Below are positions 32,379-53,965 of a stretch of DNA of 64,000 nt, piece after piece; within the stretch, counting starts at the first letter, position 1, and each line of letters begins with the position of its first letter. Source of the DNA: Pseudomaricurvus alkylphenolicus (GTDB lineage Bacteria; Pseudomonadota; Gammaproteobacteria; Pseudomonadales; Cellvibrionaceae); assembly GCF_011683955.1 (NCBI RefSeq), contig NZ_JAAQPI010000011.1, positions 124,001 to 188,000 on the forward strand, given 5' to 3'. The notes beneath the pieces are model-generated. The model had not been told where the DNA came from, ran no database searches, and saw only the letters and a program-made list of their open reading frames with translations. A program made the position numbers and the translations under genes.

Positions 32379-32430
32379 CTGCGCTCGTCAGCAGCATCCT
32401 CTCTATTCAAACACACAGCGTTGAGTTGCC

Positions 32431-33444: not shown

Positions 33445-33644
33445 TGGGTTTATATAAGCGAAAGCTTTTAGAGCCAGCGGCGCCTTCGGAGGCCAAATTG
33501 CGGCTTGGGACCGTGGTTAGACCCGCAGCCATAAAAGCCAGGCGGATTCCCTGGCACCCCCGGCCCGCTGCGGAATTGACAGCATCATCGCCCAAGCCGT
33601 ACATTAACCGGGTACCCACTCCGGTTTGTGCTGCGGTTGACGAA

Positions 33645-34631
33645 ATGCCCACTCACCTTCTTCATGCTGATCATTCATTTACCACGGCGGGGCTTAAACC
33701 CCGGGACCAGTTCGAATACTGGCGTGAGCTGGTATGTGATGAGTTTGTGCAGCTGGACTGTGAACGCGCTGATCGGGGTGCCTTCAGTGGCGAAATCCGC
33801 AGCGACAAGTTGGACCGGATCCAGCTTTCAGAGGTCTCCTCCGACCCGCAGCACGTGGTGCGCTCCAATCGTCAGATCTCCCGCTCCAGCGAACGTGAGT
33901 TTCTACTGAGCCTCCAGATCAGTTCGACCGGTGTCGTCCGCCAGGGCGGCAGAGAAGCCGTACTGCAGCCCGGGGATTTTGCTATTTACGACAGCGCCAG
34001 GCCCTATACGCTGGACTTCCACCAACCCTTCCAGCAACTGGTGTTGCAAATTCCCCATGAGGTTCTCTCAAACTACCTGAAGTCGGCGGAAGACTGCACC
34101 GCTATCGCCATCTCGGGGCAGAGCGGCGCCGGTTCTCTGGTTTCTCAGTTTCTTTCCTCGGTGGCCGGGCGTACGCGGGAACTTGATCAGGTCAGGCCCC
34201 AGATTGAAGACAATATCTTTAGTCTGCTGTGCATGAGTCTTGGCAGCGCCAAGGAGTTACAGGCGGTGGATAGCCGCTCTTCGGTTATGGTGGCACAGCT
34301 GGAGAAAATAAAAGTATTTATCGAAAACAATCTGCACGATGAGCGTTTGTCGCCGCAGTTTGTGGCCGATGCGTTCAATATATCCAAGCGTTATTTGCAC
34401 AAGCTGTTTGAACTGGAAGAAATGCCCGTAGCGCGCTTTATTCTTCAGCGACGCCTGGAACAGTGTCGCCAGCATCTGTTAGATCCGCGTTTTGCCGGCC
34501 AACGAATCGAGCAAATTGCCTTTCGCTGGGGCTTTAACAGCTCACCGCACTTCAGCAAGGTATTTAAGCAATTTACCGGGTTATCACCCAGGGCCTATCG
34601 AAATCGCCATTTTGGCAAAGCCACGCACTAG
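33645..34631 (+). CDS. AraC-family regulator of the aldoxime/nitrile genes
   Basis: A 328-residue regulator. The N-terminal part (about 10-190) is the AraC-binding-like domain of the FeaR/NitR type (DQFEYWRELVCDEFVQLDCE, VLQPGDFAIYDSARPY). The C-terminal 100 residues are a double helix-turn-helix (FVADAFNISKRYLHKLFE and IEQIAFRWGFNSSPHFSKVF). The frame is open back to 33441, overlapping the dehydratase stop, but that 68-residue extension is unlike the family, so I use ATG 33645, leaving a 200-base gap. It most likely activates the nitrilase and dehydratase genes in response to a nitrile or aldoxime, as in characterised clusters. Confidence 0.85.
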   Translation: MPTHLLHADHSFTTAGLKPRDQFEYWRELVCDEFVQLDCERADRGAFSGEIRSDKLDRIQLSEVSSDPQHVVRSNRQISRSSEREFLLSLQISSTGVVRQGGREAVLQPGDFAIYDSARPYTLDFHQPFQQLVLQIPHEVLSNYLKSAEDCTAIAISGQSGAGSLVSQFLSSVAGRTRELDQVRPQIEDNIFSLLCMSLGSAKELQAVDSRSSVMVAQLEKIKVFIENNLHDERLSPQFVADAFNISKRYLHKLFELEEMPVARFILQRRLEQCRQHLLDPRFAGQRIEQIAFRWGFNSSPHFSKVFKQFTGLSPRAYRNRHFGKATH

Positions 34632-35217: not shown

Positions 35218-35346
35218 TTCAACGCTATACGTCATTTGACGTACCCCACTGGGCCAATTGCCCAATAGTGACCTCCCTCCCCCCTGTGAATAATAAGCTT
35301 CGAAAAAAGGCGGTATCAGAAACATCATCACAGACTGGGGAAGGTT

Positions 35347-36513
35347 ATGAGCAAGCAAGAAAACGGGATCATTCGATCCAAAAATCCAATTCGACTGGCC
35401 GTAGCGGCCGCAGCGCTGGCTATGGGTGGGCTGTCTGCTCCGGTATTAGCGGGTGGCAAGGTTGCCATTGACGATACCAAATGGCTGAGTGTCGGGGCCG
35501 GCTTCCGCGCCCAGTACGATTCAGTTGAAGACGGCGCCAACGGCGGCGAAGACCGCAGTAATGAATTCACCATGAGCAACATGCGCTTGTACCTCTCCGG
35601 TCAGCTGCATGAGATGATCAAGTTCACCTTCAACACCGAAAAGCTCGACGGCGAAGACATCGAGGTTCTGGACGCGGTTGCCCAGTTTGAGCTGAGCCCC
35701 GCCTTTAACATCTGGGTTGGCCGCATGCTGACCCCGGCGGATCGTATCGAAATGAGCGGCCCCTTTTATGCACTGAGCTGGAACCAGTACCGCCAGCCGC
35801 TGTACGCCTCCGACCAGGGCGGCGAGGCCGGCCGCATCGGTCGTGACGAAGGTATTACCCTGTGGGGTTCCATGGGTAAATTCCAGTACGCTATTGGCGC
35901 TTTTGACGGCCTCGAAGGTGGTGCCAACCAGTCGGACGAACTGCTCTACGCCGGTCGTTTCGCCTACAACTTTCTCAATAAGGAAGACAATCCGGGCTAC
36001 TACACCAGCTCCACCTACTACGGCAGCCTCGGCAATATCTTCACCCTGGGTGCGTCCTTCCAGAGCCAGAGCGACGGTGTGGGTAGCGAAGGCGAGGCCG
36101 GTGACTTTACCGGTTACACCCTGGATTTGCTGTCGGAAACCGTACTGGACGGTGGCGGTGTGGTAACCGTGGAAGCGGAATACAAGGACTTCGATGCGGA
36201 TTACACACTGGCCACCACACCCACATCCGGTGATTGTTTCTGCCTGTTTGACGGCGATTCCTGGTTCGCCACTGCCGCCTATCTGTTCCCTGCTGAGGTG
36301 GGCCCCGGCAAGTTCCAGCCATACGTGCGGTTTGTGGAAAACAATCCATCGGACGCCGACTCCAGCGACGCCACTGAGTTTGGTCTCAACTACGTAATCT
36401 CCGGCCACAACGCCCGCCTCAATATCAACTTCGTCGATGGTGATGCCAACGCCAGCGGTTACGCGGGTGCTGACGTCAACAGCTTCACCGTAGGTGTGCA
36501 GGTTCAACTCTAA
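35347..36513 (+). CDS. Outer-membrane porin, OprO/OprP-like fold
   Basis: A 388-residue beta-barrel porin. A signal peptide (cleaved near VLAGG, residue 36) precedes alternating strands with aromatic girdles, typical [20 protein letters not shown], and a C-terminal strand ending in hydrophobic residues (FTVGVQVQL). The family is the phosphate-selective porin O/P group, but porins of this fold adjoining urt genes are more likely to pass urea or short amides. urtA starts 22 bases downstream, so they are co-transcribed. An extracellular loop carries a Cys pair (GDCFCLFDG). Confidence 0.85.
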
Positions 36514-36535: not shown

Positions 36536-37822
36536 ATGAAACTGAAAAAACTGGCTACCACCATGGCGCTCAGTATCAGCGCCTCCATGTTCTCCCTGGG
36601 CGCACTGGCCGCGGACACCATTAAAGTCGGGGTGTTGCACTCTCTGTCCGGCACCATGGCGATCAGTGAAACTACGCTCAAAGATACCGTTCTGATGATG
36701 ATCGAAGATCAGAACAAAAAGGGCGGTCTGCTCGGCAAGAAACTCGAAGCGGTAGTTGTAGACCCCGCTTCCAACTGGCCTTTGTTTGCGGAGAAAACCC
36801 GCGAACTGTTGGACCAGGAAGAGGTGGACGTAATCTTCGGCTGCTGGACCTCCGTATCCCGTAAATCTGTTTTACCCGTGATCGAAGAACTGAACGGGCT
36901 GATGTTCTACCCGGTACAGTACGAGGGCGAAGAGTCCTCCAAGAATGTTTTTTATACCGGCGCCGCACCCAACTAGCAGGCCATTCCTGCGGTGGACTAT
37001 CTGATGGAAGAGGCCGGTATCAAACGCTGGGTGTTGGCGGGTACCGACTATGTTTATCCTCGTACCACCAACAAAATTCTGGAAGCTTACCTGAAGTCCA
37101 AAGGCGTTAAAGACAAGGACATCTTGATCAACTACACGCCGTTCGGTCACTCCGACTGGCAGGGCATTGTATCCAGCATCAAGAAGTTCGGCAGTGCCGG
37201 CAAGCCTACCGCCGTGGTCTCCACGATTAACGGTGATGCCAATGTGCCTTTCTACAAAGAACTGGGTAACCAGGGAATCAGTGCAGAAGATATCCCCGTG
37301 GTGGCTTTCTCTGTCGGTGAAGAAGAACTTTCCGGGTTTGATACCGCCCCACTGGTGGGCCACCTGGCGGCCTGGAATTATTTCCAGTCTGCGGAATCTG
37401 ATGCGAACGAAGAGTTTATCGCCAAATGGAAAGGCTTTATCAAGGACGAAAAGCGCGTAACCAACGACCCTATGGAAGCCACTTACGTTGGCTTTAAAGC
37501 CTGGGCCAAGGCAGTGAAGAAAGCTGGTACTGTGGACGTGGATAAAGTGCGTAACGCGCTCTACGGCATCAAGGTGAAAAACCTGACTGGTGGCGTGGCT
37601 GAAGTACTGCCCAACCACCACTTTACCAAGCCGGTGCTGATTGGTGAAATTCAGGAAGACGGTCAGTTTGAAATCGTTTCCCAAACGACGGAAGTACCCG
37701 GTGATGCCTGGACCGACCATCTGCCAGAGAGTTCCAAGATTATTTCCAATTGGCAAGATCCGAGCATTAACTGCGGTAACTACAATACCAAGACCAAAAA
37801 GTGTTCCGGTCAGAATTACTGA
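36536..37822 (+). pseudogene. urtA: Urea ABC transporter substrate-binding protein UrtA, interrupted by an in-frame TAG
   Basis: UrtA is the periplasmic urea-binding protein of the UrtABCDE transporter. The frame from ATG 36536 to 37822 encodes 428 positions, with a signal peptide (cleaved near ALAAD) and family sequence throughout ([43 protein letters not shown], then QAIPAVDYLMEEAG, FSVGEEELSG). A TAG at 36974-36976 stands where homologues have Gln in GAAPNQQAIPA, a one-base change from CAG. No other damage is visible. TAG is an ordinary stop elsewhere in this window, so the product should be truncated at 146 residues unless the base is a sequencing error or is suppressed. Confidence 0.9.
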
Positions 37823-37918: not shown

Positions 37919-39562
37919 GTGGTTCGATCGATACCCATCTGGATTCTGTCTCTATTGCTTTGTTTGAATGCCGGCAGGTTGGCAGCCGAAGACTTTGATG
38001 CAGTCGTGGAGACACACCCCGTTTACGAATTGCTTTTACAGCTCCCCAAAGCCAGTTTTAAAACAAAAAACCAGGTGCTGAAGGGCCTGCAAAAGCTTTC
38101 CGGCAATGACGCCGTACCCATCATGGAAATGTGGTTGGCCAGTGAACTCTATTACGACAAGGCCAGTCGTCAACAAATCTACAGAGTCAGTAAGAATGCC
38201 GAGGGCAAGTTCGACATTGCTCGACTGTTAAGGGCGGATATTTCTTTGGTCCCCACCCAGTCCATCGATAAAAAATTACTGAAGAAAGTACGCACAAACA
38301 ACAAGCTGCGCAAAGCACTGCGTGAGGCGATCGCCCGTACCACGCTGGTTAACGGCAGTGAATCCGAGCGCTTACAGGCCGTTAATGCGATGCTGGCGAC
38401 CATTAATTCGGACTCTGCACAGCTGATTGAAGCGGCGCTGGAAAACGAAAAATCCGGCGAAGTTCGCGAACTGATGCAGGTGGCGCTGGCGCTTCATTTG
38501 TTGATAGACGGTACACCTGAACAACAGCTGTCGGCACTGCCGCAACTGCAGGAGCGTCTTGAGCCCGCTGTTAGATCTGCACTGAACAACGCGCTTGAAA
38601 GCGCGGAAGCAGACTCCAGACTCAGCCTTGCCCTGAGTAACACCCTGCGCAAAATCGAAGACCGCATTGAATTCTATGGGCTGGTGGAAAAGCTGTTCTT
38701 TGGTCTCAGTCTGGGTTCAGTGTTCCTGTTGGCAGCCATCGGTCTGGCCATCACTTTTGGGGTGATGGGGGTGATCAATATGGCCCACGGCGAAATGATC
38801 ATGCTCGGTGCCTACACCACTTATGTGGTACAGCTGTTGATGCCCAATCACCTGGAGTATTCTATTCTGGTGGCGATTCCCGCCGCGTTTGTGGTGTCCG
38901 GTTTGGTGGGTGTGGCCATTGAACAGGGCGTGATTCGCTTTCTGCACGGCCGGCCGCTGGAGACATTACTGGCGACTTTTGGTATTAGCCTGATTTTGCA
39001 GCAGCTGGTCAGAACCATCTTTACCCCCCTAAACCGTCAAGTGGCCTCACCGGAGTGGATGAGCGGTGCCTTGGAGCTCAATCCGGTGTTATCCCTGACC
39101 TATAACCGACTTTACATCCTGGCATTTTCGCTGCTGGTGTTCGGGATCCTGATGTATATCTTCAAGAAAACCAATTTGGGCTTAAACGTTCGTGCGGTAT
39201 CGCAAAACCGTGCCATGGCCAAAGCCATGGGTGTTAAAACCCAATGGGTCGACGCCATGACCTTTGGGCTGGGCTCCGGTGTCGCGGGCGTCGCGGGTGT
39301 GGCGCTGAGCCAGTTAACCAATGTGGGACCCAACCTGGGGCAATCCTATATCATCGACTCGTTTATGGTGGTGGTGTTTGGCGGTGTGGGTAACTTGTTG
39401 GGAACACTGGTGGGAGCTTTCTCGCTGGGTGTCACCAATAAGTTCCTGGAGCCGGTCACGGGTGCCGTACTCGCCAATATTCTGGTTTTGGTGTTTATTA
39501 TTCTGTTTATCCAGAAGCGGCCCAAAGGGCTGTTTCCCCAAAAGGGGAGGGCAGCCGAATGA
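37919..39562 (+). CDS. urtB: Urea ABC transporter permease UrtB
   Basis: UrtB (547 residues) is a LivH-type permease of the urea importer. It has the long periplasmic N-terminal extension that distinguishes UrtB from LivH: a signal-like start and about 240 helical residues, then eight or so membrane helices (from about 260) with FGVMGVINMAHGEMIMLGAY and the cytoplasmic loop GLNVRAVSQNRAMAKAMGV that contacts the ATPases. Translation starts at GTG 37919 behind GAGGAT. It overlaps urtC by four bases (ATGA). Confidence 0.95.
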   Translation: MVRSIPIWILSLLLCLNAGRLAAEDFDAVVETHPVYELLLQLPKASFKTKNQVLKGLQKLSGNDAVPIMEMWLASELYYDKASRQQIYRVSKNAEGKFDIARLLRADISLVPTQSIDKKLLKKVRTNNKLRKALREAIARTTLVNGSESERLQAVNAMLATINSDSAQLIEAALENEKSGEVRELMQVALALHLLIDGTPEQQLSALPQLQERLEPAVRSALNNALESAEADSRLSLALSNTLRKIEDRIEFYGLVEKLFFGLSLGSVFLLAAIGLAITFGVMGVINMAHGEMIMLGAYTTYVVQLLMPNHLEYSILVAIPAAFVVSGLVGVAIEQGVIRFLHGRPLETLLATFGISLILQQLVRTIFTPLNRQVASPEWMSGALELNPVLSLTYNRLYILAFSLLVFGILMYIFKKTNLGLNVRAVSQNRAMAKAMGVKTQWVDAMTFGLGSGVAGVAGVALSQLTNVGPNLGQSYIIDSFMVVVFGGVGNLLGTLVGAFSLGVTNKFLEPVTGAVLANILVLVFIILFIQKRPKGLFPQKGRAAE

Positions 39563-40719
39563 GTTTTCTGCAGCGTGCATTAAATGCCGGCCGCTTTGGT
39601 CGCCAGAGCACCACCTGGGTGGTGGGGTTGCTGTTTGCGGTTACCCTCTACGCCTCGGTGTGTAACCTGCTGCTGCCACCCGAGTCCATGTTCTACGTCA
39701 GCACTTATACCATTACCTTGCTGGGCAAGTATCTATGCTTTGCATTGCTGGCTTTGTCGGTGGATGTGGTTTGGGGCTACTGCGGTGTACTCAGTCTCGG
39801 CCACGGTGCTTTTTTTGCTCTGGGCGGATACGGCATGGGCATGTACCTGATGCGCCAGATCGGTGATCGTGGTGTCTACGGTAACCCGGAATTACCGGAT
39901 TTTATGGTGTTTCTGAACTGGGATACTCTGCCCTGGTATTGGTACGGTATGGATCAGTTCTGGTTCGCCATGCTGATGGCGGTGGCAGTGCCTGGTCTGC
40001 TGGCATTCGTATTTGGCTGGCTGGCATTCCGCTCTCGGGTGACCGGTGTGTATCTGTCGATTATGACCCAGGCGCTCACCTATGCCTTGATGTTGGCATT
40101 CTTCCGCAATGAAATGGGTTTTGGTGGCAACAACGGCCTCACTGATTTCAAAGAGTTGCTGGGTTTTGATTTGCAGGCGGATACCACCAGGGTGGCATTG
40201 TTTGCGGTAACGGCCATGCTGCTGGCGCTGGCGTTTTTGGCAAGCCGATTTATCATGGACTCGCGCTTTGGTCGCGTCATTGTTGCCATTCGCGATGCCG
40301 AACCGCGTACGCGCTTTGTGGGTTACCGCACGGATCATTATAAGGTCTGGTTGTTCGTTTATTCCGCAGCACTGGCGGCCATTGCCGGCGCCCTCTATGT
40401 ACCCCAGGTGGGCATTATCAATCCCGGTGAGTTCTCTCCCATCAACTCCATTGAGGTGGTGGTGTGGGTAGCCGTCGGTGGTCGCGGCACCTTGTACGGC
40501 GCTATCGCAGGCGCTCTGCTGGTGAATTACGCCAAGACCCGTTTTACCGCGATCATGCCTGATGGCTGGTTGTTTGCCCTGGGGGCTCTGTTTGTCTGGG
40601 TGACCCTGTTCCTGCCTCAGGGGCTCGCAGGTTTTGTGGAAAAACAGCTGGCGCGTTTCAAATCCTCATCGAAAACAGGCTCTTCAGCTTCGGACTTGGT
40701 TGAGGAGGCAAGCTCATGA
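39559..40719 (+). CDS. urtC: Urea ABC transporter permease UrtC
   Basis: UrtC (386 residues) is the LivM-type second permease. Membrane helices fill residues 20-355; VDVVWGYCGVLSLGHGAFFALGGY and the EAA-like loop FGRVIVAIRDAEPRTRFVGY are the family landmarks. The C-terminal tail (KFKSS-like, Ser-rich) is cytoplasmic. Both ends overlap neighbours by four bases (ATGA), showing tight translational coupling with urtB and urtD. Confidence 0.95.
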   Translation: MSFLQRALNAGRFGRQSTTWVVGLLFAVTLYASVCNLLLPPESMFYVSTYTITLLGKYLCFALLALSVDVVWGYCGVLSLGHGAFFALGGYGMGMYLMRQIGDRGVYGNPELPDFMVFLNWDTLPWYWYGMDQFWFAMLMAVAVPGLLAFVFGWLAFRSRVTGVYLSIMTQALTYALMLAFFRNEMGFGGNNGLTDFKELLGFDLQADTTRVALFAVTAMLLALAFLASRFIMDSRFGRVIVAIRDAEPRTRFVGYRTDHYKVWLFVYSAALAAIAGALYVPQVGIINPGEFSPINSIEVVVWVAVGGRGTLYGAIAGALLVNYAKTRFTAIMPDGWLFALGALFVWVTLFLPQGLAGFVEKQLARFKSSSKTGSSASDLVEEASS

Positions 40720-41549
40720 CCATGTTGGAATCCACCCGTGAGTTTTGGCGCCGGGATCAGGTTTGGCCGGTGCTGATGGACGACGATGTTAAGGTTGACG
40801 TGTCCAAACAAGTCATCCTCTATGTGGAAGGTTTGAGTGTCAGCTTCGATGGCTTTAAAGCCCTTAACGACCTTAATCTGTACATCAATGACGGTGAGCT
40901 GCGCTGTCTGATTGGCGCCAACGGCGCCGGTAAAACCACTCTGATGGATGTGATTACCGGCAAGACTGCCTGTGATACCGGCACGGTGTATTTTGGTCAG
41001 ACCATTAACCTGCTGAAACACAGTGAGGCGGAAATCGCTCAGCTGGGCATCGGGCGCAAATTCCAGAAGCCGACAGTGTTTGAGGCTCAAACCGTTTGGG
41101 AAAACCTGGAGCTGGCTCTCAAGGCGAGCAAGGGCATCTGGTACAACCTGCGGGCCAGTTTGTCCGCCAGCGAACAGGATCTGATGCTGGGCATACTCGA
41201 TACCATCGGTCTGCAGACACAAAGCAAGCAGTTGGCGGGAGCCCTCTCGCACGGACAAAAACAGTGGTTGGAAATCGGTATGCTATTGGCCTCTCAACCC
41301 AGACTGTTATTGATCGACGAACCCGTTGCCGGTATGACGGCGCAGGAAACCGAACGCACCGCTGAGCTGCTGACCTCCCTGGCGGGTGATCGCACGGTGG
41401 TGGTGGTTGAACACGATATGGAATTTGTGCGCAGTATTGCCCGCACTGTGACCGTCTTGCATCAAGGTTCTGTCCTCGCCGAAGGCACTATGGACGATGT
41501 GCAGAACAACCGTGACGTCATCGAGGTGTACCTGGGGGAAGAAGCATGA
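40716..41549 (+). CDS. urtD: Urea ABC transporter ATP-binding protein UrtD
   Basis: UrtD (277 residues) is a LivG-type ATPase. Walker A is IGANGAGKTTLMD, the signature appears as GALSHGQKQWLEIGMLL, Walker B is LLLIDEPVAGM, and the switch His is in VVVVEHDMEF. It has an N-terminal extension of about 30 residues before the ABC core, normal for UrtD. With UrtE it forms the ATPase pair driving urea uptake. It overlaps both urtC and urtE by four bases. Confidence 0.95.
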   Translation: MTMLESTREFWRRDQVWPVLMDDDVKVDVSKQVILYVEGLSVSFDGFKALNDLNLYINDGELRCLIGANGAGKTTLMDVITGKTACDTGTVYFGQTINLLKHSEAEIAQLGIGRKFQKPTVFEAQTVWENLELALKASKGIWYNLRASLSASEQDLMLGILDTIGLQTQSKQLAGALSHGQKQWLEIGMLLASQPRLLLIDEPVAGMTAQETERTAELLTSLAGDRTVVVVEHDMEFVRSIARTVTVLHQGSVLAEGTMDDVQNNRDVIEVYLGEEA

Positions 41550-42241
41550 TCTCCATTAATAAGGTTAACCAGAAGTATGGTGGCACGCAAATCCTCTGGG
41601 ACCTGGATCTGGATATACAGCAAGGCAGCCGTACCTGCATTATGGGTCGTAATGGTGTGGGCAAAACCACCCTGTTGAAATGCCTGATGGGGTTATTGCC
41701 GATCAACAGTGGCGAGATTCGCTACCAGGGCCAGCCCATTCACGATAAAACCCCGGAGTCCCGCGCACCCATGGGCATAGGCTACGTGCCCCAGGGGCGG
41801 GACATTTTCCCGCTGCTGACGGTGGAGGAAAACCTGCGCATTGGACTGCCCTGTCGTCAAGATGGCCTTAAGACCATCCCCGACAAAATTTACCAGCTGT
41901 TCCCGGTACTGAAAGACATGACCCACCGCCTGGGCGGTGACCTGTCCGGGGGGCAGCAACAGCAGTTGGCCATCGGTCGGGCCCTGGTGACGGACCCTCA
42001 GGTGTTGATTCTCGACGAGCCCAATGAGGGCATTCAACCCAACATTGTTAAGCAAATTGGCGATGTTCTTCTAAAGTTAAACGAGGAAGATGGGCTGACG
42101 GTGATCCTGGTGGAGCAAAAACTGGGGTTCGCCCGGCGCATTGGCCAGGAATTTCGGTTGATGGAAAAGGGCAGGGTAGTGGCCAGTGATCGCATGGATA
42201 ACCTTAACGATGACCTGATCAAGCAGCATCTGGCGGTATAG
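41546..42241 (+). CDS. urtE: Urea ABC transporter ATP-binding protein UrtE
   Basis: UrtE (231 residues) is the LivF-type ATPase of the urea importer. Walker A is MGRNGVGKTTLLKCLMG, the signature GGDLSGGQQQQLAIGRAL, Walker B VLILDEPNEGIQPN, and the switch region VILVEQKLGFA, where Gln replaces the His usual in other ABC ATPases, a feature of LivF/UrtE proteins. ureD begins only two bases after its stop, joining transporter and urease into one operon. Confidence 0.95.
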   Translation: MISINKVNQKYGGTQILWDLDLDIQQGSRTCIMGRNGVGKTTLLKCLMGLLPINSGEIRYQGQPIHDKTPESRAPMGIGYVPQGRDIFPLLTVEENLRIGLPCRQDGLKTIPDKIYQLFPVLKDMTHRLGGDLSGGQQQQLAIGRALVTDPQVLILDEPNEGIQPNIVKQIGDVLLKLNEEDGLTVILVEQKLGFARRIGQEFRLMEKGRVVASDRMDNLNDDLIKQHLAV

Positions 42242-42243
42242 GC

Positions 42244-43161
42244 GTGGCAAATTCTTCCACCAATAACGCGGTACGGCAAGCTGAACAGGCCACCACCCCG
42301 GCCAGTGTCAGTCATATTGGCCACTGGCCCGCCAATCTTGAGCTGCAATTTGCCCGGGGTGCCAGAGGCACGCGGCTGGTGCGCAATCGCCATCAGGGCC
42401 CGCTCTACGTTCAAAGGCCTTTCTACCCGGAGGGCCCTGATCTACCCCATGCCTATCTGCTTCACCCTCCGGGCGGCATTGTTTCGGGAGATCGATTGCA
42501 GGTTAAGGTGCAGATGGAGGCTAATGCCCGGGCATTGTTGACCACGCCTGGCGCGGGCAGGGTCTACCGGGCCCGGCCAGACCGCGCCCTGCAACATCAG
42601 ATCAATGTTCTCCGTATTGATGCCGGTGCCAGCCTGGAATGGCTGCCCCTTGAGACCATTGTCTTCCCCGATGCCCGTACCCGTCTGGAAACCCGGGTTG
42701 AGTTGCAGGGCGACGCGCGCTTTATCGGTTGGGAGGTGACCTCGCTGGGACTGCCGGCCTGTGAACAGCATTTTGATCGCGGTGAGCTGAGCCAGCGTTT
42801 TTCTGTTCACCGCGATGGCATTCCGATGGTGCTGGAGCAACTGCGCCTGGACGATCAGCATCGCAAGCTCTATCAATCGGCGGCAGGAATGCGTTCACAA
42901 CCGATCAACGGGTTATTTGTTGCCGGGCCCTTCGCCGCTTCTGACCTCCAAGAAAATCAGATGGAGGCACTTCGCCAATTGCCAGAGCCCAATGGACGGG
43001 ATTATATCGCGGGTATCAGCCTGACCGGTGAATTTGCGCTGGGACGTTACCTGGGCTCCTGCTCCGAACAGGCCCGCCTGGTGTTTGAATACTGGTGGCA
43101 ACAACTGCGCCCCGTGTTGTTGCAGCGCGAGGCCTGTCGCCCGCGCATCTGGTTTACCTGA
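42244..43161 (+). CDS. ureD: Urease accessory protein UreD
   Basis: UreD (305 residues) forms the UreD-UreF-UreG complex that carries nickel into apo-urease. Family segments include LPHAYLLHPPGGIVSGDRL, TTPGAGRVYR, and the C-terminal YLGSCSEQARLVFEYWWQQLRP. Start is GTG 42244, two bases after urtE. UreD first, then structural genes, is the common gammaproteobacterial order. Confidence 0.95.
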   Translation: MANSSTNNAVRQAEQATTPASVSHIGHWPANLELQFARGARGTRLVRNRHQGPLYVQRPFYPEGPDLPHAYLLHPPGGIVSGDRLQVKVQMEANARALLTTPGAGRVYRARPDRALQHQINVLRIDAGASLEWLPLETIVFPDARTRLETRVELQGDARFIGWEVTSLGLPACEQHFDRGELSQRFSVHRDGIPMVLEQLRLDDQHRKLYQSAAGMRSQPINGLFVAGPFAASDLQENQMEALRQLPEPNGRDYIAGISLTGEFALGRYLGSCSEQARLVFEYWWQQLRPVLLQREACRPRIWFT

Positions 43162-43188
43162 GAACTTTTTCGATAACGAGAAACTGCT

Positions 43189-43491
43189 ATGGAACTGCTG
43201 CCTAGAGAGAAAGACAAGCTGCTGGTGTTTACCGCGGCACTGTTGGCCGAACGTCGTCTTAATCGTGGCCTTAAGCTTAACTACCCCGAAGCGGTGGCGC
43301 TGATCACCATGGAAATTATCGAGGGCGCCCGTGACGGCAAAACGGTGGCCGAGCTGATGAGCTACGGCAAGGAAATCCTCAGCGCCGATCAGGTGATGGA
43401 CGGAGTGGCCGAAATGATTCACGAAGTACAGGTGGAAGCCACGTTCCCCGACGGTACCAAGCTGGTTACCGTTCACGATCCGATTAACTGA
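43189..43491 (+). CDS. ureA: Urease gamma subunit
   Basis: UreA (100 residues) is the small gamma subunit of urease, which hydrolyses urea to ammonia and carbamate. The sequence begins [20 protein letters not shown] and contains [22 protein letters not shown], both typical. Length matches the stand-alone gamma subunit (about 100), so gamma and beta are not fused here. It lies 27 bases after ureD and 12 before ureB. Confidence 0.97.
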
Positions 43492-43503
43492 AAGGAGCGC
43501 CCA

Positions 43504-43827
43504 ATGATTCCCGGAGAAATACAAACCGGCAGTGGCGAGATCGAGCTCAATGTTGGCCGTGAAACTCGCACATTACGAGTAGAAAATATCGGAGACCGCC
43601 CGGTGCAGGTGGGTTCCCACTACCACTTTTTCGAGGTGAATCCAGCACTGAAATTTGATCGCGACAAAGCCCTGGGGTTTCATCTGAATATTGCTTCGGG
43701 CACAGCGGTGCGTTTTGAACCCGGTCAGGGGCGCGAAGTGGAATTGGTGGCGTTTGCCGGTGACCGAAAAATCTTTGGCTTCCGGGGTGATGTCATGGGC
43801 GACCTTCCAAAAGGAGCGGCATCATGA
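43504..43827 (+). CDS. ureB: Urease beta subunit
   Basis: UreB (107 residues) is the beta subunit of the urease heterotrimer. It opens [20 protein letters not shown] and shows the diagnostic [14 protein letters not shown] and [22 protein letters not shown] precedes the ATG. It overlaps ureC by four bases (ATGA), which should keep subunit amounts equal. Confidence 0.97.
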
Positions 43828-45536
43828 GCAAAATGGACAGGCATGCTTACGCCCATATGTTTGGCCCCACGGTGGGCGACAAAGTCCGCCTGGGTGACAC
43901 TGAACTTTGGATCGAGGTGGAAAAGGACTACACCACTTACGGCGACGAAGTTAAGTTCGGTGGTGGCAAAGTCATTCGCGACGGCATGGGACAGAGTCAG
44001 CGCGCTTGTGGCGACACGGTGGATCTGGTGATCACCAATGCGTTGATCCTGGATCACTGGGGCATTGTTAAGGCGGATGTCGGTATTAACGACGGCCGCA
44101 TCGTCACCATCGGCAAGGCCGGTAACCCGGACGTACAGGATGGTGTGGACATTGTTATAGGCCCGGGCACAGAGGTGATTGCCGGCGAGGGTTCTATACT
44201 GACCGCCGGTGCCATCGACGCCCATATTCACTTTATCTGCCCACAGCAGGTGGAAGAAGCATTGATGTCCGGCATTACCACCATGATTGGCGGCGGCACC
44301 GGCCCGGCGACTGGCACCAATGCCACGACCTGTACGCCAGGCCCCTGGAATATCGGCAAGATGCTGCAGGCGACCGATTCCCTACCCATGAACCTGGGGT
44401 TTCTCGGTAAGGGTAACGCCAGTCTACCCATCGCTTTGGAAGAACAGCTGGAAGCCGGTGCCTGCGGACTGAAGTTGCACGAAGATTGGGGTACGACTCC
44501 CGCCTCTATTGATTGCTGCCTGACGGTGGCGGAAAAATATGATGTACAGGTGGCGATTCACACCGACACACTCAATGAGTCCGGTTTTGTCGATGATACG
44601 CTCGGCGCGTTTAAAAACCGGGTGATTCACACCTACCACACCGAAGGCGCCGGTGGTGGTCACGCCCCGGATATTATCAAGGCTTGTGCGTCACCTAACG
44701 TCTTACCCTCGTCCACCAACCCGACTCGCCCCTATACCATCAACACCATCGACGAGCATCTGGATATGTTGATGGTCTGCCATCACTTGGACCCCGGCAT
44801 TCCGGAAGACGTGGCCTTTGCGGACTCTCGTATTCGCAAGGAAACCATCGCTGCCGAAGACATTTTTCATGACCTGGGTGCCTTCAGTATGATCTCGTCG
44901 GATTCCCAGGCCATGGGCCGGGTGGGGGAGGTGATTACCCGTACCTGGCAGACCGCGCACAAAATGAAAGTTCAGCGGGGGCACCTGGCGGGCGAATCCG
45001 AAAGCGATAATCTTGCCGATAACTTTCGCGCCCGTCGCTATGTCGCCAAGTACACCATTAATCCGGCCATCACCCACGGTGTGTCCGAGCATGTCGGCTC
45101 CGTCGAGGCGGGTAAGCTCGCTGATCTGGTGTTGTGGAAACCGGCGTTCTTTGGCATCAAACCGTCACTGATTATCAAAGGCGGCATGATTGCCGCAGCG
45201 CCTATGGGCGACCCCAATGCATCCATTCCAACGCCACAACCCGTGCATTACAGACCCATGTTCGGCGCCCATGGACTGGCGGCGGCAAAGACGTCGTTTA
45301 CGTTTACCTCTCAGGCGGCCCTGGATGCCGACGTGGGGACAAAGCTGGGCTTACAACGCCAATTGCTGGCCTGCACCAATACCCGTACGCTTACCAAAGC
45401 CGACATGATTCTTAACAACTGGATGCCCCACGTCGAGGTGGATCCGCAAACCTACGAGGTGCGGGCTGACGGTGTTTTACTGACGTGTGAACCGGCGACC
45501 GAGCTGCCGTTGGCGCAGCGTTATACGCTGTTTTAA
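43824..45536 (+). CDS. ureC: Urease alpha (catalytic) subunit
   Basis: UreC (570 residues) holds the dinickel centre. All known active-site elements are present: [11 protein letters not shown] (two His ligands), GLKLHEDWG (carbamylated Lys bridging the nickels and nearby His), [27 protein letters not shown] (His ligands), the flap MVCHHLDP with its Cys, and [11 protein letters not shown] with the Asp ligand. Length equals that of well-studied enzymes. With ureA and ureB intact, the enzyme should be functional if nickel is delivered. Confidence 0.98.
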
Positions 45537-45563
45537 ACATCCGGTTCTAACAGGAGAAGCTTT

Positions 45564-46004
45564 TTGGACGTATATCAGAGACTGGGCGTACAAACCGCAA
45601 CGTCGTTTGACGATGTCATTGTATTGACACAGGAGCAGCGGGACAAAGGCCGGCTTAAGGCCGAGGCAAAAAGCGGCGCAGAGGTCCGCATTTTTTTGGA
45701 GCGGGGCAAGCCACTGCAAGTGGGCGAACTGCTGCAAAGTGATTGCGGAAAACAAATTCTGATTGAAGGCGCGGAAGAAGAAGTCACTTATGCGGAGTGT
45801 GATGATTGGCATACCTTTGCCAGAGCCTGTTACCACTTGGGCAATCGCCATGTGAAATTGCAGGTGGGAGAGCGCTGGCTGCAAATGACACCCGACCATG
45901 TATTGGAGGAAATGTTGGAAGGCTTGGGCCTCACGGTGTCCCGCCGCCGCGCTGTGTTTGTGCCCGAGTCCGGAGCTTATAGCCATGGCCATCACCATCA
46001 CTGA
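45564..46004 (+). CDS. ureE: Urease accessory nickel chaperone UreE
   Basis: UreE (146 residues) is a cytoplasmic nickel-binding chaperone that delivers Ni to the UreDFG-apourease complex. N-terminal peptide-binding domain and C-terminal metal domain are present (YHLGNRHVKLQVGERWLQM). The C-terminus is a nickel-binding tail, SHGHHHH, shorter than the ten-His tail of Klebsiella. Start is TTG 45564 behind CAGGAGAAG. The tail codons overlap the first codons of ureF by 20 bases. Confidence 0.95.
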   Translation: MDVYQRLGVQTATSFDDVIVLTQEQRDKGRLKAEAKSGAEVRIFLERGKPLQVGELLQSDCGKQILIEGAEEEVTYAECDDWHTFARACYHLGNRHVKLQVGERWLQMTPDHVLEEMLEGLGLTVSRRRAVFVPESGAYSHGHHHH

Positions 46005-46653
46005 TACCGGCTTGCTGCGCTTATTGCAGCTCAGCAGTGTCAGCCTGCCGGTTGGCGGATATGCTTTTTCACAGGGGCTGGAATACGCCGTCGAGGTGGG
46101 TTGGGTGCATTCTTTGGACTCTTCCCGTGAGTGGCTGCAGCAGCAATTGCAGGATGCGCTGGCGAGAGTGGATCTGCCGATATTGTTCCGCGCCTATAAC
46201 GCCGTTGATGAGAGTGAGGTGTTTTACTGTGATCAGTTGGCGTTGGCCTGCCGGGAAACCCGTGAGTTGCGTTTAACCGATACGGCGATGGCCGAGGCAA
46301 TATTGCGACTATTGCCGAATCTGGGCGTTGACGACTTATTGCCGCCGGCACCGGAACACAGCTTTGTGGTGGCCTTTGCAAGGGTGGCTAAACAGTGGAA
46401 CGTCTGCCAGGATGCTGCCTTGCTCGGTTACGCTTGGGCATGGCTGGAAAACCAGGTGGCAGCGGCCACGAAACTGGTGCCTTTGGGGCAGACCCAGGCG
46501 CAGCAGTTGCTCAGTGATTTACAGTTGGCTTTGCCGCCGGCACTGGAGCAGGCAAAGACGCTGGAGGAAGAAGACATAGGCGCATGCCTGCCGGCGCTGG
46601 CTATTGCCAGTGCCCAACACGAAACTCAATACACACGATTGTTTAGATCCTGA
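45985..46653 (+). CDS. ureF: Urease accessory protein UreF
   Basis: UreF (222 residues) is the helical fidelity factor bridging UreD and UreG during nickel insertion. It begins [20 protein letters not shown], with family motifs [17 protein letters not shown] and the cytoplasmic helices that follow. ATG 45985 lies inside the last codons of ureE; the frame is open further upstream but that part is antisense in style to UreE coding and not UreF-like. C-terminal [15 protein letters not shown] is typical. Confidence 0.94.
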
Positions 46654-46678
46654 TAACTTTTTCATGGAGGACATTACC

Positions 46679-47332
46679 ATGACAACAACTCGACCCAAAC
46701 AAACCCTGCGCGTGGGCGTGGGTGGTCCGGTAGGTTCCGGCAAAACGGCGTTGCTGCGAACGCTTTGTTCGGCCATGCGGGATTATTACAATATCGCGGT
46801 GGTGACCAACGATATTTATACCCAGGAGGATTCGCAGTTTCTGACGCGCCATAATGTGCTGGATGCGGATCGGATTATCGGTGTAGAAACCGGGGGCTGC
46901 CCGCATACGGCGATTCGAGAGGATGCGTCGATGAATCTGGCAGCCATTGACGAGTTGCTAAAGCGCCACGGAGAGTTGGATGTGGTGTTTGTGGAGAGCG
47001 GCGGCGATAACCTGAGTGCGACCTTCAGCCCGGAGCTCTCCGATCTGACCATTTACGTTATCGACGTTTCTGCGGGCGACAAGATTCCCCGCAAGGGTGG
47101 TCCCGGTATCACCAAGTCGGATTTGTTGATCATCAATAAAACGGATCTGGCGCCTTTGGTGGGTGCTTCTTTGGAGGTAATGGATCGCGACGCCAAGAAG
47201 ATGCGTGGTGAGCGTCCGTTTGTATTTTCGAATCTGAAGGCGGGTCAGGGTATCGATGACATCATCAACTTTATTATCGACGCCGGCATGCTGCCACCCA
47301 AAGAGCTGCCGCCGGCCAAGGCGGTTGTTTAA
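46679..47332 (+). CDS. ureG: Urease accessory GTPase UreG
   Basis: UreG (217 residues) is a SIMIBI-class GTPase that couples GTP hydrolysis to nickel insertion in urease. The P-loop is [27 protein letters not shown] and the metal-binding [19 protein letters not shown] (Cys-Pro-His) follow; [17 protein letters not shown] and [14 protein letters not shown] (NKTD base recognition) complete it. ATG 46679 has GGAGGA seven bases upstream. It is the last classical urease gene of the operon. Confidence 0.97.
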
Positions 47333-49610: not shown

Positions 49611-50528
49611 TCAAACCGGCTCACTTATCAACCGTATTGCCACGCTGGCTGCAGCGGTGCGGTTTTCAACCCCCACCTTTTGAAAAACTTGTTCCAGATG
49701 TTTGTTGACAGTTCTTGGACTTATGCTCAATATTTCCCCAATTTCCTTATTGGTTTTACCGCAGGCGATCCAGTTCAGGACCTCAGCTTCGCGACCGGTC
49801 AAGCTAAAGCGTTCCTGCAGACGCTGTTCGTCAGAAATGCAAACACCATCCACCAGCTTCAGCAAAAACTGATCATCGTTACGGGCCTCAACAAACACAA
49901 CGGATAAAGGGTGTTGCAGCTGGCTCAGTTCCAACTTGTGTTGTGCTTCCGGTTTGTGCTGTAACCATATTCGCAGTGCGGGGGCCAGTGTCTGGCTGCG
50001 CCATTCGACATCTGCCTGCGCCAGCTGGAACAGTTCGTAAGCCTGTGGCGTTGCCCAAAGCAATTCACCGCGGCTGTTTACGGTCAATAGTACCTGCCCG
50101 GTAGAGTCCAATGCGGTCTGTGCGCTTTGCGTCAGGCGGGCATTGTTCAGATGCACTTTCATTCGAGCCAGGAGTTCATTGGGATTGATCGGTTTGGTCA
50201 GGTAATCCACACCGCCCACTTCAAGACCCCGCACAATGTCTGAGGTGTCGGTCAGACCGGTCATAAAGATGACGGGGATATTGGCCAGCTCAGGGTCGGC
50301 CTTGAGTTGGCGGCAGGTTTCAAAGCCATCCATTTTCGGCATCACGGCGTCGAGCAGGATCATATCGGGGCGCAGGCGCTTGGCGATGGTCAGCGCTTGC
50401 TTGCCTTCGAGTGCTACAAGTACGTCAATGCCGGCTGCCTCCAGGGCATCACTGATCAAACTCAATGCATCGTGGGAGTCATCCACCACCAGCACGATGT
50501 CTTGGTTGGTTTGGCTGTCCGAAGTCAT
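49611..50528 (-). CDS. LuxR/FixJ-type response regulator
   Basis: A 305-residue response regulator. The receiver domain (about 10-130) has the acidic pair DD (16-17), phospho-acceptor Asp60 (MILLDAVMPKMDG) and the conserved Lys in YLTKPIN. A PAS-like linker (about 135-235) follows, then a GerE/LuxR helix-turn-helix (SLTGREAEVLNWIACGKTNK and ISPRTVNKHLEQVF). It overlaps the stop of the transporter-kinase gene by four bases, so it is its likely partner. Targets are unknown; the urea/urease and nitrilase genes nearby are candidates. Confidence 0.9.
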   Translation of the reverse strand: MTSDSQTNQDIVLVVDDSHDALSLISDALEAAGIDVLVALEGKQALTIAKRLRPDMILLDAVMPKMDGFETCRQLKADPELANIPVIFMTGLTDTSDIVRGLEVGGVDYLTKPINPNELLARMKVHLNNARLTQSAQTALDSTGQVLLTVNSRGELLWATPQAYELFQLAQADVEWRSQTLAPALRIWLQHKPEAQHKLELSQLQHPLSVVFVEARNDDQFLLKLVDGVCISDEQRLQERFSLTGREAEVLNWIACGKTNKEIGEILSISPRTVNKHLEQVFQKVGVENRTAAASVAIRLISEPV

Positions 50529-53500
50529 GCGGGGTTGCCCTCCAGGAGCAGTTCCATCTGTTCAAACTGCAGGCCCATGGCAAGTTTGTGCAGATGATTA
50601 AAAGTACTGTCGTCCAGCAGTTGCCGGGCTCTGATATCGTCGAGCAAATCGAGTACACCCTTGCGGTGCCCGATTTGTACACGGGTCAGGAGTGTTTGCA
50701 AGAGCGGGTGCTCCGGCAGGGCCGGCACTATGTCAACTTCCGTCTCTTGGGCTGCAGCGCCACCACAGGGTGCTGAGATCACTTGCGCATCGCCACTTTG
50801 GTATTGCCAATCCAGGTGCAAGAGCTTGCCGATTTTCTCCAACAGTACCGGGTTGCGGATGGGTTTTACCATATAGTCGTCGTGTGGTGTACGTTCCAGA
50901 GCATTCGGGTGTTGTTCGTTGGCCTCAGCAGAAAGCATCAGTATCGGCGCTTTGATACCTTGCTCCCGGAGTGTTCGTGCCAGCTCGTGGCCGTTCATGC
51001 CGGGCATATTGACGTCCAGTATAAACAGGTCCGGGGTGACTTCTTCCAGAGTCTGCAGGCAGTTTTCTGCGCTTTGAGCTTCTATCACATTAAATCCCAG
51101 CGGCATCAGAATGTCTGACATCAATCCGCGGTGCAGCGGCTCATCGTCGACGATCATCAGCGTGCGTCTCAATCCAAGGTAACCCGTTGTTACTTTGGGC
51201 AGCAATGAAGGTTCCTGACTGTCGTCAACCCAGGACAACATCAATGACACGGAAAAGCAGCTGCCGGCGCCTGGCGTGCTTTTTATATCGAGGTTGCCTC
51301 CCATGATTTCAGTCAGCAGCCGCACGATGGTCAAGCCAAGTCCGGTGCCGGGGGTATGGGGAGAGTTGCTGTTTCTGACTCGCTCAAAGGGTGTAAAGAT
51401 TCGTTCAATATCGTTCTGTGCAATGCCGATACCTGTGTCCACCACAGAGAATTCCGCCACTTGGTTTCGATAGTAGACGTGAAAGTCCACTCGGCCTTTG
51501 TCGGTGTATTTGATGGCGTTTGAGAGCAGGTTAATCAGTATTTGGCGCAGTCGTTTTTCATCGGCGATGACGAGTTTTGGCAAACGGTGGTGCAGTTGAA
51601 AATTGAACTCGATGCCCTTGTTGCGGGCTTGTTGCTCGAACATTTTGACCAGTTGATCAAGCAGCTCGGGCAGTCGCACGCGATTGCGGTAGATGTCCAG
51701 TCGGCCGGCTTCGATTTTGGAGATGTCGAGCAGCCCTTCAATCAGATCGGCAAGGTGTTCACCGCTGTTGCTGATAATACCAAGGGCGCGTTGGTGTTGA
51801 TCGGGAATATCTTTTTGGTTGGACAGCAGTTGTGCGTAGCCGAGAATGGATTGCAAGGGTGTGCGCAGTTCATGGCTGATGCCGGACAAGTAACGGGTCT
51901 TTGCACTGTTGGCGTTTTCGGCTTGTTCTTTGGCTAGCTGCAGTGCCCGGTCGGTTTCCTGGTGAGCTTCAATTTCATCGATAAGCAACTGTGTTTGGCG
52001 ATTGGATTCCTGTTGCGCCACCACGCGACTTTCATGGGCTAACAGGAATAACCAAGAGATAACTCCGGAGATTATGGAGAGGGAAAAGAACAGCATCCAG
52101 ATGGTGGTGCTGAGCAGTTGGGTTTCTGCGGCAGATTCGGGTTTGAGGTGAAAGTATATCAGTGCCAGGAAGCCGCCATTAAGCAAGCTCACGCAGGTAA
52201 GGGTGGTTGCAAAGCGCACGATGCGTGAATGGACGGCCTTAACGACAAGTGCCGGTGCAATACGGTCCAGCCAGTTGTTTAGCTGGGTTTTGAGGCGGGC
52301 ATCAGGTTTGCAATTATCCAGGCAACGGGCATCCAGCGAGCAGCAGAGGGAGCAGATGGGGCCCTGATAAGCCGGGCAGTGGCTCATGTCGTCGAGTTCG
52401 AACTCGCTCTCGCAAATGCAGCAACGTAGTCCTTTGGTGCTCTGGCCGGAGTGGCTGGGAATATCGACCGCTTCGTAGACCTTGATGTCTCCTCGTGGGC
52501 GGGCGAGGTAGAAGCGGCCACGGGTCAGCCAGGCGATCAGGGGGACGCAGATAAAGCAGGCAAGCAGGCTGATAAAGTGGGCCAGTTGACTGGCGCTTTC
52601 GCCCAGGTAACCCAGGTAGCAAACAAAACCGAGTATCGAGGCCAGTACCATAGAGCCGACGCCAACCGGGTTGATATCGTAAAGATAGGCGCGCTTGAAT
52701 TCCACCATGGGTGGGCTTAATCCCAGGGGTTTGTTGATCAGCAGGTCGGCGGAGAGGGAGGCGAGCCAACTGATGGCAACGATGGCAAAGATCCCGAGGA
52801 TGGCTTCCAGAACCCGGTACACGCCCAGTTCCATCAATACCAATGCAATGGTGACGTTAAAGACCAGCCATACGACGCGGCCGGGGTGGCTGTGGGTAAG
52901 GCGCGAGAAGAAGTTGGACCAGGCGATGGAGCCTGCGTAGGCGTTGGTCACGTTGATTTTCATCTGGGAGATGATAACCATCACACCGGCCAGTATCAGT
53001 GACAGGGAGGGCATGTTGGCAATGCCACTAAAGATATAGTCAAACGCCATCTGATACATGTACACCGGATCGATGGCTTTCTCGTAGGGCATGGCTTTGG
53101 TAAACGCCAGGTAGGCGAGAAAGGAGCCCAGCAGCATTTTGATAAGGCCGACCCAAATCCAGCCGGGCCCCGCCATAATCAGCCAGAACCACCAGCGCTT
53201 TTTATTTTTTTCGGTTTTCTGGGGGAAGAATCTCAGGTAGTCCACCTGCTCGCCGATCTGGGCAACCATGGCGAAGAAGATGGAGGCGGAGGCGCCGAAC
53301 AGGGCGAGATTAAAGCCCTGGACACCGGCGTGCTCGCGGGGGACGAATTGATGCCAGTGGTCGATGCGGTCGAATTCGTAGTAGACGACGGCGATGAGTG
53401 CACAGCATTGCAGCAGTAGCCAGAAGGGTTGGCTGCCGACCTGGAAGCGGCTGATGGCGGCGATGCCATGGGTAACGATAGGGACGACGATCAGTGCGCT

Positions 53501-53965
53501 GATGATGTAGCCGGCCCAGAGTGGGATTTGGAACAGGGCTTTGAGAGCGGAGGCAAAGATGGCGGCTTCGATGGCGAAGAAGATAAAGGTGAATGATGCG
53601 TAGATAAGTGAGGTGATGGTGGAGCCGAGATAGCCGAAGCCGCCTCCTCGGGTCAGCAGATCGATGTCGAGGCCGTGTTTGGCGGAGTAGTAGCTGATGG
53701 GGAAGCCGGTGATAAAGATGACGGCGGCAACGGCGAGCATGGCCCAGAGGGTGTTGATAAAGCCGTATTGGAGGGTGGCGGCGGCGCTCAGGGCTTCGAG
53801 CGCCATAAAGGCGGTGGCACCGAGGGCGGTCATGCCGATGCGGCCCAGGGGCCAGCGTCTGGCTCGGGTGGCGGTAAAGCGCAGGGCGTAGTCTTCGAGG
53901 GTTTCGTTGCCGACCCATTTGTTGTATTGGCGGCGGACCCGGAAGATGGATTGTGTGGCGCGCAT
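50525..53965 (-). CDS. NCS1 permease-histidine kinase-receiver hybrid (transporter-type sensor kinase)
   Basis: A sensor of about 1146 residues. Residues about 10-490 are a full NCS1 (nucleobase:cation symporter-1) transporter: N-terminal YNKWVGNETLEDYALRF, then some 12 membrane helices. A cysteine cluster follows (Cys515, 516, 518, 530, 538, 541, 542, 548, 552), then two more helices (about 580-645) and a coiled coil. HisKA has His698 (SGISHELRTP), the ATPase domain has its N-box (LLSNAIKY, Asn816) and G boxes, and a receiver has Asp984 (FILDVNMPGMNG). A 110-residue helical tail may be an HPt relic without a clear His. Start is ATG 53965; a GTG at 54034 adds 23 residues. It resembles in principle CbrA, where an SLC5 transporter is fused to a kinase. 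Confidence 0.9.
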   Translation of the reverse strand: MRATQSIFRVRRQYNKWVGNETLEDYALRFTATRARRWPLGRIGMTALGATAFMALEALSAAATLQYGFINTLWAMLAVAAVIFITGFPISYYSAKHGLDIDLLTRGGGFGYLGSTITSLIYASFTFIFFAIEAAIFASALKALFQIPLWAGYIISALIVVPIVTHGIAAISRFQVGSQPFWLLLQCCALIAVVYYEFDRIDHWHQFVPREHAGVQGFNLALFGASASIFFAMVAQIGEQVDYLRFFPQKTEKNKKRWWFWLIMAGPGWIWVGLIKMLLGSFLAYLAFTKAMPYEKAIDPVYMYQMAFDYIFSGIANMPSLSLILAGVMVIISQMKINVTNAYAGSIAWSNFFSRLTHSHPGRVVWLVFNVTIALVLMELGVYRVLEAILGIFAIVAISWLASLSADLLINKPLGLSPPMVEFKRAYLYDINPVGVGSMVLASILGFVCYLGYLGESASQLAHFISLLACFICVPLIAWLTRGRFYLARPRGDIKVYEAVDIPSHSGQSTKGLRCCICESEFELDDMSHCPAYQGPICSLCCSLDARCLDNCKPDARLKTQLNNWLDRIAPALVVKAVHSRIVRFATTLTCVSLLNGGFLALIYFHLKPESAAETQLLSTTIWMLFFSLSIISGVISWLFLLAHESRVVAQQESNRQTQLLIDEIEAHQETDRALQLAKEQAENANSAKTRYLSGISHELRTPLQSILGYAQLLSNQKDIPDQHQRALGIISNSGEHLADLIEGLLDISKIEAGRLDIYRNRVRLPELLDQLVKMFEQQARNKGIEFNFQLHHRLPKLVIADEKRLRQILINLLSNAIKYTDKGRVDFHVYYRNQVAEFSVVDTGIGIAQNDIERIFTPFERVRNSNSPHTPGTGLGLTIVRLLTEIMGGNLDIKSTPGAGSCFSVSLMLSWVDDSQEPSLLPKVTTGYLGLRRTLMIVDDEPLHRGLMSDILMPLGFNVIEAQSAENCLQTLEEVTPDLFILDVNMPGMNGHELARTLREQGIKAPILMLSAEANEQHPNALERTPHDDYMVKPIRNPVLLEKIGKLLHLDWQYQSGDAQVISAPCGGAAAQETEVDIVPALPEHPLLQTLLTRVQIGHRKGVLDLLDDIRARQLLDDSTFNHLHKLAMGLQFEQMELLLEGNPA

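Follow-up and report, generated by a model that had tools for sequence, protein, structure and literature searches.

A hybrid histidine kinase with an NCS1-type transporter-like sensor domain, encoded beside urea and amide gene clusters, is a probable urea receptor

INTRODUCTION

The closest described relatives of the protein reported here are the SLC5-STAC sensor kinases CbrA, CrbS, and RpuS, in which a LeuT-fold transporter forms a single protein with a histidine kinase; paired with a response regulator, the kinase controls nutrient uptake or use (PMC13022988, PMC7096432, PMC9100948, PMC5715377). CrbS is, like the present protein, a hybrid kinase. CbrA sets a precedent for kinase-fused transport (PMC7096432, PMC13022988). 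A second precedent, this one for binding without transport, is Ks-Amt5, in which a nutrient transporter domain has likewise turned into a histidine-kinase receptor (PMC5764959), although its domain has the Amt fold, is trimeric, and takes ammonium as its ligand.

The operons that adjoin most of the relatives examined below (the best 80 of at least 592) are of a known type, represented by FmdCABDEF of Methylophilus and by the urt-fmdA clusters. The FmdCABDEF operon type is induced by formamide and urea, and the text available to us names only a putative positive regulator, and no kinase, for it (PMC10781810). The transporter of the urt-fmdA clusters has been suggested to carry amides (PMC3098086, PMC13209695), and such a cluster occurs in Pseudomonas veronii (PMC13209695). 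Klebsiella CG307 carries urt-formamidase genes (PMC13060141); the terms histidine kinase and two-component are absent from the main text of that report. In a genome map of Ectopseudomonas, the neighbors drawn for a urtABCDE operon include a hybrid kinase and a regulator of the LuxR type (PMC13296017). Transporter-kinase fusions are thus already known, and in the literature covered, which includes few subscription journals, we found no description of an NCS1-kinase fusion, of its cysteine tail, of a urea or formamide sensor kinase, or of a tie between such a protein and the urea/formamide operons.

Here, we describe an NCS1-derived hybrid sensor histidine kinase of 1,146 aa encoded in a 64,000-nt stretch of the Pseudomaricurvus alkylphenolicus genome (contig NZ_JAAQPI010000011.1, positions 124,001 to 188,000), which we call the window and to which all unprefixed coordinates refer. 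We consider it probable that this protein is a receptor kinase whose NCS1-type permease sensor has been adapted to urea (and, in many relatives, to short-chain amides such as formamide) and which switches on a porin-urt-ure gene cluster.

RESULTS

An NCS1-type permease domain is fused to a hybrid histidine kinase

The kinase gene occupies 50525..53965 on the minus strand, with an ATG at 53965 and a stop codon at 50525-50527. Pfam recognized HisKA (residues 688-754, with H698) and HATPase_c (residues 802-909), together encoded at 51239..51904, and a receiver domain (Response_reg, residues 937-1045, with D984; 50831..51157), all on the same strand, and returned no domain above cut-off for residues 1-687. 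The features of a hybrid kinase, namely HisKA with its His, HATPase, and a receiver with its Asp, were present in 16/16 sensors, and H698 was invariant among them. No HPt domain was recognized in the kinase in addition to its receiver, a point that counts against the urea-sensor explanation.

The part of the protein that precedes the kinase comprises, again on the minus strand, an NCS1-type transporter-like sensor domain (residues ~20-490; 52496..53908), a cysteine-rich segment (residues 515-552; 52310..52423), and a second membrane pair (residues ~581-640; 52046..52225). In the structure model, helices 581-607 and 612-679 lie between the cysteines and the kinase, the second of them continuing towards the kinase. 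The earlier note on this DNA had described a whole NCS1 permease fused to a hybrid histidine kinase with a cysteine cluster between them, and this reading was borne out by the open reading frame, the Pfam domains, the NCS1 profile and fold (see below), the nine cysteines, and the helix pair. A gene absent from that note, 49611..50528 on the minus strand, encodes a 305-aa response regulator with a receiver (PF00072) and a LuxR/GerE helix-turn-helix (PF00196) and overlaps the kinase stop codon (ATGA), so that kinase and regulator look like a two-component pair.

A search of public genomes for the domain combination, which the note had proposed, found the N-terminal domain encoded by at least 592 stretches in a genome-contig search, and relatives with uncut frames measured 1,110 to 1,221 codons in 90/93 cases, the other three (L032, L050, and L095) being broken frames. 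Given this number and this uniform length, we conclude that the fusion is not a chance event. Within a sample of the phylum, 52/398 genomes gave a strong match (E <= 4.4e-186), and two further matches came from a fragment of a contig and from a distantly related stand-alone permease. The transporter domain also matched 537/72,556 plasmid records at E values up to 1, a figure that includes one chromosome-sized record and one weak match; 342 were from Klebsiella. The alignments below use 68 sensors chosen by hand from 103 open reading frames, with near-duplicates and cut or broken frames excluded.

The sensor domain is NCS1-derived and differs from NCS1 symporters at the sodium site

Profile-profile comparison by hhalign matched the sensor domain to a 12-sequence NCS1 profile at 98.8% (E 7.5e-17, 435 columns), compared to 0.2% for SLC5 (12 rows), 0.1% for BCCT (2 rows), and 1.2% for APC (7 rows). 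An SLC5 origin of the transporter domain, which we had considered, was rejected on this comparison. With permeases added, the match was 99.4%; single NCS1 sequences mostly gave low values (CodB 12.3%, L117 78.9%, L121 86.7%, L113 96.6%, and the rest <7%). The modeled domain (pLDDT 87.6) has CodB/Mhp1 as its closest fold. The Pfam NCS1 model PF02133 matched 0/16 sensors, for which reason we class the sensor as NCS1-derived and not as an NCS1 symporter, and since a sequence search of the PDB with the domain profiles gave no NCS1 match, the assignment rests on profile-profile comparison together with the fold. The SLC5-STAC kinases, in contrast, combine an SLC5 core with the described STAC domain, where the present protein has an NCS1 core, a cysteine tail, and an extra membrane pair.

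The functional residues of CodB (PMC9379551) were mapped onto the sensor by hhalign. The Na2 side chains Thr278 and Thr279 align with Lys336 (68/68 sensors) and Ile337 (67/68), contrary to the earlier hope that the sodium-site residues would be kept. The residues that contact cytosine through their side chains are also changed: Gln105 aligns with Thr126 in 68/68 sensors and Trp108 with Phe129 in 66/68. One of the two aromatics that sandwich the substrate is this same Trp108, and the other, Phe204, falls in an alignment gap; Asn280 is kept as Asn338 in 68/68 sensors. The domain thus differs from the symporters CodB and Mhp1 in its Na2 side chains and its substrate side chains as well as in being fused to a kinase. 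The four close stand-alone permeases all have K336 as well, and the lysine therefore marks the subfamily rather than the sensors.

Close stand-alone permeases adjoin urease or formamidase genes

Four close kinase-free permeases, from Klebsiella, L208, Tsukamurella, and L207, are encoded next to ure or fmdA genes. The Klebsiella gene (L152:7881-9488), annotated as a "cytosine permease," lies directly after ureG; its product is ~40% identical to the sensor domain (39.7-40.2%), matches PF02133 at 38.1 bits against a cut-off of 23.5, and carries a four-Cys version of the cysteine tail. It differs from the sensor in being free of a kinase and in having Asp at TM1 position 56. We regard it as a candidate urea permease. 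The Klebsiella record itself is labeled a plasmid and is 5.4 Mb long, which is chromosome-sized, and contains rpoD. The L208 permease gene is likewise found after ureG. That of Tsukamurella lies two genes ahead of a zinc-ribbon gene and fmdA, and that of L207 lies ahead of fmdA-fmdB, divergent from the sensor gene and in the place of urtABCDE; neither of these two permeases matched PF02133. Among more distant NCS1 relatives, a permease with 28-29% identity (L186:6949-11984) adjoins genes for a CN-hydrolase, a periplasmic-binding (AmiC-like) protein, and an AmiR-like protein. Against the pattern, the distant stand-alone relative L113 had no urt, fmdA, or ure match nearby.

The sensors branched apart from the permeases with moderate support (84/43 and 86/77). 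In two further relatives (L114:3651-8347 and L115:3634-8156), the NCS1-Cys module is joined to a kinase that is not a hybrid, indicating a move of the module to a different type of kinase. The kinase gene is followed by genes for a receiver-kinase and a regulator of the OmpR type and lies beside a formamidase gene, as identified by Pfam for L114 and judged by eye for L115.

The cysteine segment contains nine cysteines (515, 516, 518, 530, 538, 541, 542, 548, and 552), all of which except 516 are invariant in 68/68 aligned relatives. Searches with the segment returned weak zinc-finger-like rows only, FYVE/RING-like zinc fingers having been compared, and it is probably a zinc-finger-like domain. 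An iron-sulfur cluster was also considered; the weak matches were zinc-finger-like only. Because the stand-alone permeases carry the same segment, it is probably a metal-binding tail inherited from the permease and did not, on this reading, arise in order to couple transport with kinase activity. Of the earlier proposal that the cluster could bind a metal and link transport to kinase state, the first half accordingly stands as probable, and the idea of a purpose-made link is the less favored.

How much of the permease survives in the sensor bears on whether the protein is a receptor or a true transceptor, in which the NCS1 domain would still transport urea or an amide and turnover, rather than binding alone, would set the kinase. 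At 84/131 of the near-invariant sensor positions in residues 1-499, the same residue is found in all four close permeases, and TM8, with K336, is common to both groups; CbrA, moreover, transports histidine (PMC7096432). The two groups part company in TM1: position 56 is Leu in 67/68 sensors and Asp in 4/4 close permeases, and position 57 is Glu in 68/68 sensors and Phe or Gln in the permeases. Ks-Amt5 demonstrates that a transporter domain can turn into a pure receptor (PMC5764959), and histidine had no significant effect on the CbrA activities measured (PMC7096432). We therefore hold continued transport by the sensor to be possible but rather unlikely, and we prefer the reading of the domain as a urea receptor.

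Relatives of the kinase gene are linked to urea and amide operons

We classified the gene neighborhoods of the best 80 of the at least 592 relatives; these are the loci most like the window, so the counts do not describe a random sample. Loci were called amide-type if they had that type of urtABCDE and/or fmdA, and urea-type if they had a urea-type urt and/or ure. The 79 loci classified (L072 had no ORF call) comprised 51 amide-type, 14 urea-type, 2 with urtA only, and 12 with none of these genes, 8 of the 12 having incomplete flanks. Among the 58 of these best-80 loci with full flanks (>=9 kb upstream and >=7 kb downstream), 54 were linked (42 amide-type, 10 urea-type, and 2 with urtA alone) and 4 were not. 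A urtA gene was found in 64/79 of these loci, upstream of and divergent from the kinase gene in 59 and within 900 bases of it in 54. Genes of the urt and ure sets were missing beside the close relatives L038, L039, L042, and L088. As a control, urtA/B/C, fmdA, ureC, and ureG were sought in 20 other kinase neighborhoods of the genome (~20 kb each) and found in 0/20, a count that omits urtD/E as generic ATPases.

The association is also visible in annotated records. Sensor genes accompany urt-formamidase genes in Klebsiella pHNLW22-1 (where the sensor is divergent from urtABCDE-formamidase), Chelatococcus pCO-6, and Peteryoungia pPRADMK78_01, a urea-type urt operon in Rhizobium T1470, and urease genes in Sphingobium. 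Phylogenetic analysis of 66 sensor domains placed the window in a seven-row clade (support 100/100) that was all urea-type, two of the seven rows being so labeled by urtA alone. The gene-type label requires six changes on the tree; one of these depends on L073, a row that was poorly cut and whose position carries no meaning. No PF03069 formamidase was found in the P. alkylphenolicus genome by a search that was positive in 4/14 control genomes, which makes urea the natural ligand candidate here. Two congeners, G004 and G002, have the same gene order as the window; in G001 and for one copy in G005, the ~40 kb fetched around the sensor gene contained neither urt nor ure genes. G005 (L012, L027, and L237-L239; contig C12) has two sensor copies, one of which is beside urtABCDE-formamidase.

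So constant a neighborhood with urt genes could also mean that the kinase reads UrtABCDE flux or the binding protein instead of urea, in which case the NCS1 domain would be a platform for docking. We think this improbable: the L207 sensor, which adjoins formamidase genes and a stand-alone permease, has no urt match in 20 kb, and the stand-alone NCS1 paralogs track the same substrates. It is more improbable still that the kinase senses nitrogen starvation or a nucleobase or hydantoin, as the NCS1 name and the cytosine and hydantoin substrates of the solved members (PMC9379551) would have it, given the urea/amide linkage in the full-flank loci and the CodB cytosine contacts replaced by Thr126 and Phe129. 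The earlier suggestion of a nitrogen-rich heterocycle or a urea-like compound as the ligand thus keeps its urea-like half, along with the predicted tracking with urt/ure genes, whereas its heterocycle half finds no support: in the five sensor loci that come with annotation, none of the genes is labeled as a purine or hydantoin gene.

A palindrome precedes the predicted target cluster

The DNA between urtA and the kinase gene comprised 58 regions, or 47 after exclusion of 11 near-duplicates (10 Bradyrhizobium and L065); each region begins where the urtA match starts, ends at the kinase start, and may contain some urtA codons. The 7-mer TACGTCA occurred in 39/47 non-redundant regions, whereas no 7-mer exceeded 15 in any of five shuffles. 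It forms half of a conserved palindrome, TACGTCA-NN-TGACGTA, which was present at <=2 mismatches in 34/58 regions (33/47 non-redundant) and lacking at that threshold in 24/58; the reversed pattern was found in 0/58. By density, there were 35 palindromes in 20,555 bases inside these regions versus 18 in 1,193,454 bases outside.

The pattern was learned without the window. At 3 mismatches, the window contains 2 matches where 1.24 are expected, so only its perfect match carries weight. This predicted response-regulator site, the 7-2-7 palindrome TACGTCATTTGACGTA (35228..35243, no strand assigned), has no second perfect match in the 8.9-Mb genome, which has a single 1-mismatch site, inside a 373-aa ORF, and none for the reversed control. 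The site lies 103 bases ahead of the porin start codon, the porin gene being the first of a porin-urtA-urtBCDE-ure cluster, and G004 and G002 each have one perfect palindrome ahead of porin-urt-ure. Elsewhere, its placement and presence vary. The amide-type copy in G005 (G005b) has its only site ~0.2 kb ahead of fmdA and not in the sensor-urtA gap; L207 has a 1-mismatch palindrome between sensor and permease; and the Bradyrhizobium regions have at best a diverged palindrome at 4 mismatches. No site within 2 mismatches was found in the DNA fetched for the urea-type loci L034, L045, L063, L073, L090, and L103, nor for L114 and L115, which have another regulator type. NarL binds sites of this 7-2-7 form, the engineered site TACCCCTAAAGGGGTA being laid out in this way (PMC4549865). 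Such a plan fits a response regulator with a GerE domain, and we infer that the regulator binds the palindrome.

All genes of the predicted target cluster are on the plus strand. The first encodes an outer-membrane porin (35347..36513) that scored above the cut-off for Porin_O_P and below that for the ExtI porin model. It is followed by urtA, for the urea-binding protein (36536..37813; 71% identical to annotated UrtA over 429 aa), and by urtB, urtC, urtD, and urtE (37919..42241), which exceeded the cut-offs of TIGR03409, 03408, 03411, and 03410. The urease cluster (42244..47332) completes the series; ureD, ureC, and ureG were matched to annotated Klebsiella urease genes and ureA, ureB, ureE, and ureF assigned by sight. 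In this assembly, urtA contains an in-frame TAG (36974-36976), which may be a genuine lesion or an error in the sequence and counts against the urea-sensor explanation. The predicted UrtB (37919-39562; 547 aa) matches the UrtB model only over residues 257-544 and has an N-terminal extension of ~250 aa; L155 likewise annotates a long urtB (1,620 bases). Genes for a nitrilase, an aliphatic aldoxime dehydratase, and a FeaR-like regulator lie in a row at 31350-34631 and make up an aldoxime-nitrile pathway cluster.

DISCUSSION

We propose that urea would enter or bind the NCS1 cavity of the sensor domain and shift the conformation of this LeuT-fold domain, and that the cysteine tail and second membrane pair would pass the shift to HisKA, changing autophosphorylation. 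Phosphate would then reach the overlapping LuxR-type regulator, which would bind the palindrome at 35228-35243 and activate the porin-urtABCDE-ure cluster. The observations behind this proposal are the architecture, the homology, the operon linkage, the paralogous permeases beside urease or formamidase genes, and the conserved DNA site; from them, we infer what the ligand is, that it binds directly in the NCS1 pocket, that the cysteine tail holds a metal, and in which direction the kinase responds. One point against the urea-receptor reading comes from CbrA, the best-studied analog, whose ligand had no significant effect on its kinase activities in vitro (PMC7096432).

On balance, we also lean, with less assurance than for the kinase in the window, towards a wider reading in which the permeases and sensors form an unrecognized NCS1 subfamily for urea and short amides rather than ring compounds, which, having a lysine in the sodium site, would probably be sodium-independent. 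One branch of it, cysteine tail included, would have been fused to histidine kinases, hybrid and separately non-hybrid, and would be the urea/formamide sensor so far missing for the urt-ure and urt-fmd operons of Pseudomonadota at large, the urt-formamidase clusters of Klebsiella plasmids among them.

The sensor is common, yet the text available to us (PMC10781810) names no sensor, other than a putative activator, through which substrates would induce formamidase operons. If our reading is true, it gives this induction a sensor, its regulator, and a searchable DNA site. The sensors would represent a new class of transporter-kinase fusion, one in which a stand-alone transporter paralog survives, so that the change from transporter to receptor would be directly testable. 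The same reading would suggest a substrate for the "cytosine permease" genes found beside urease.
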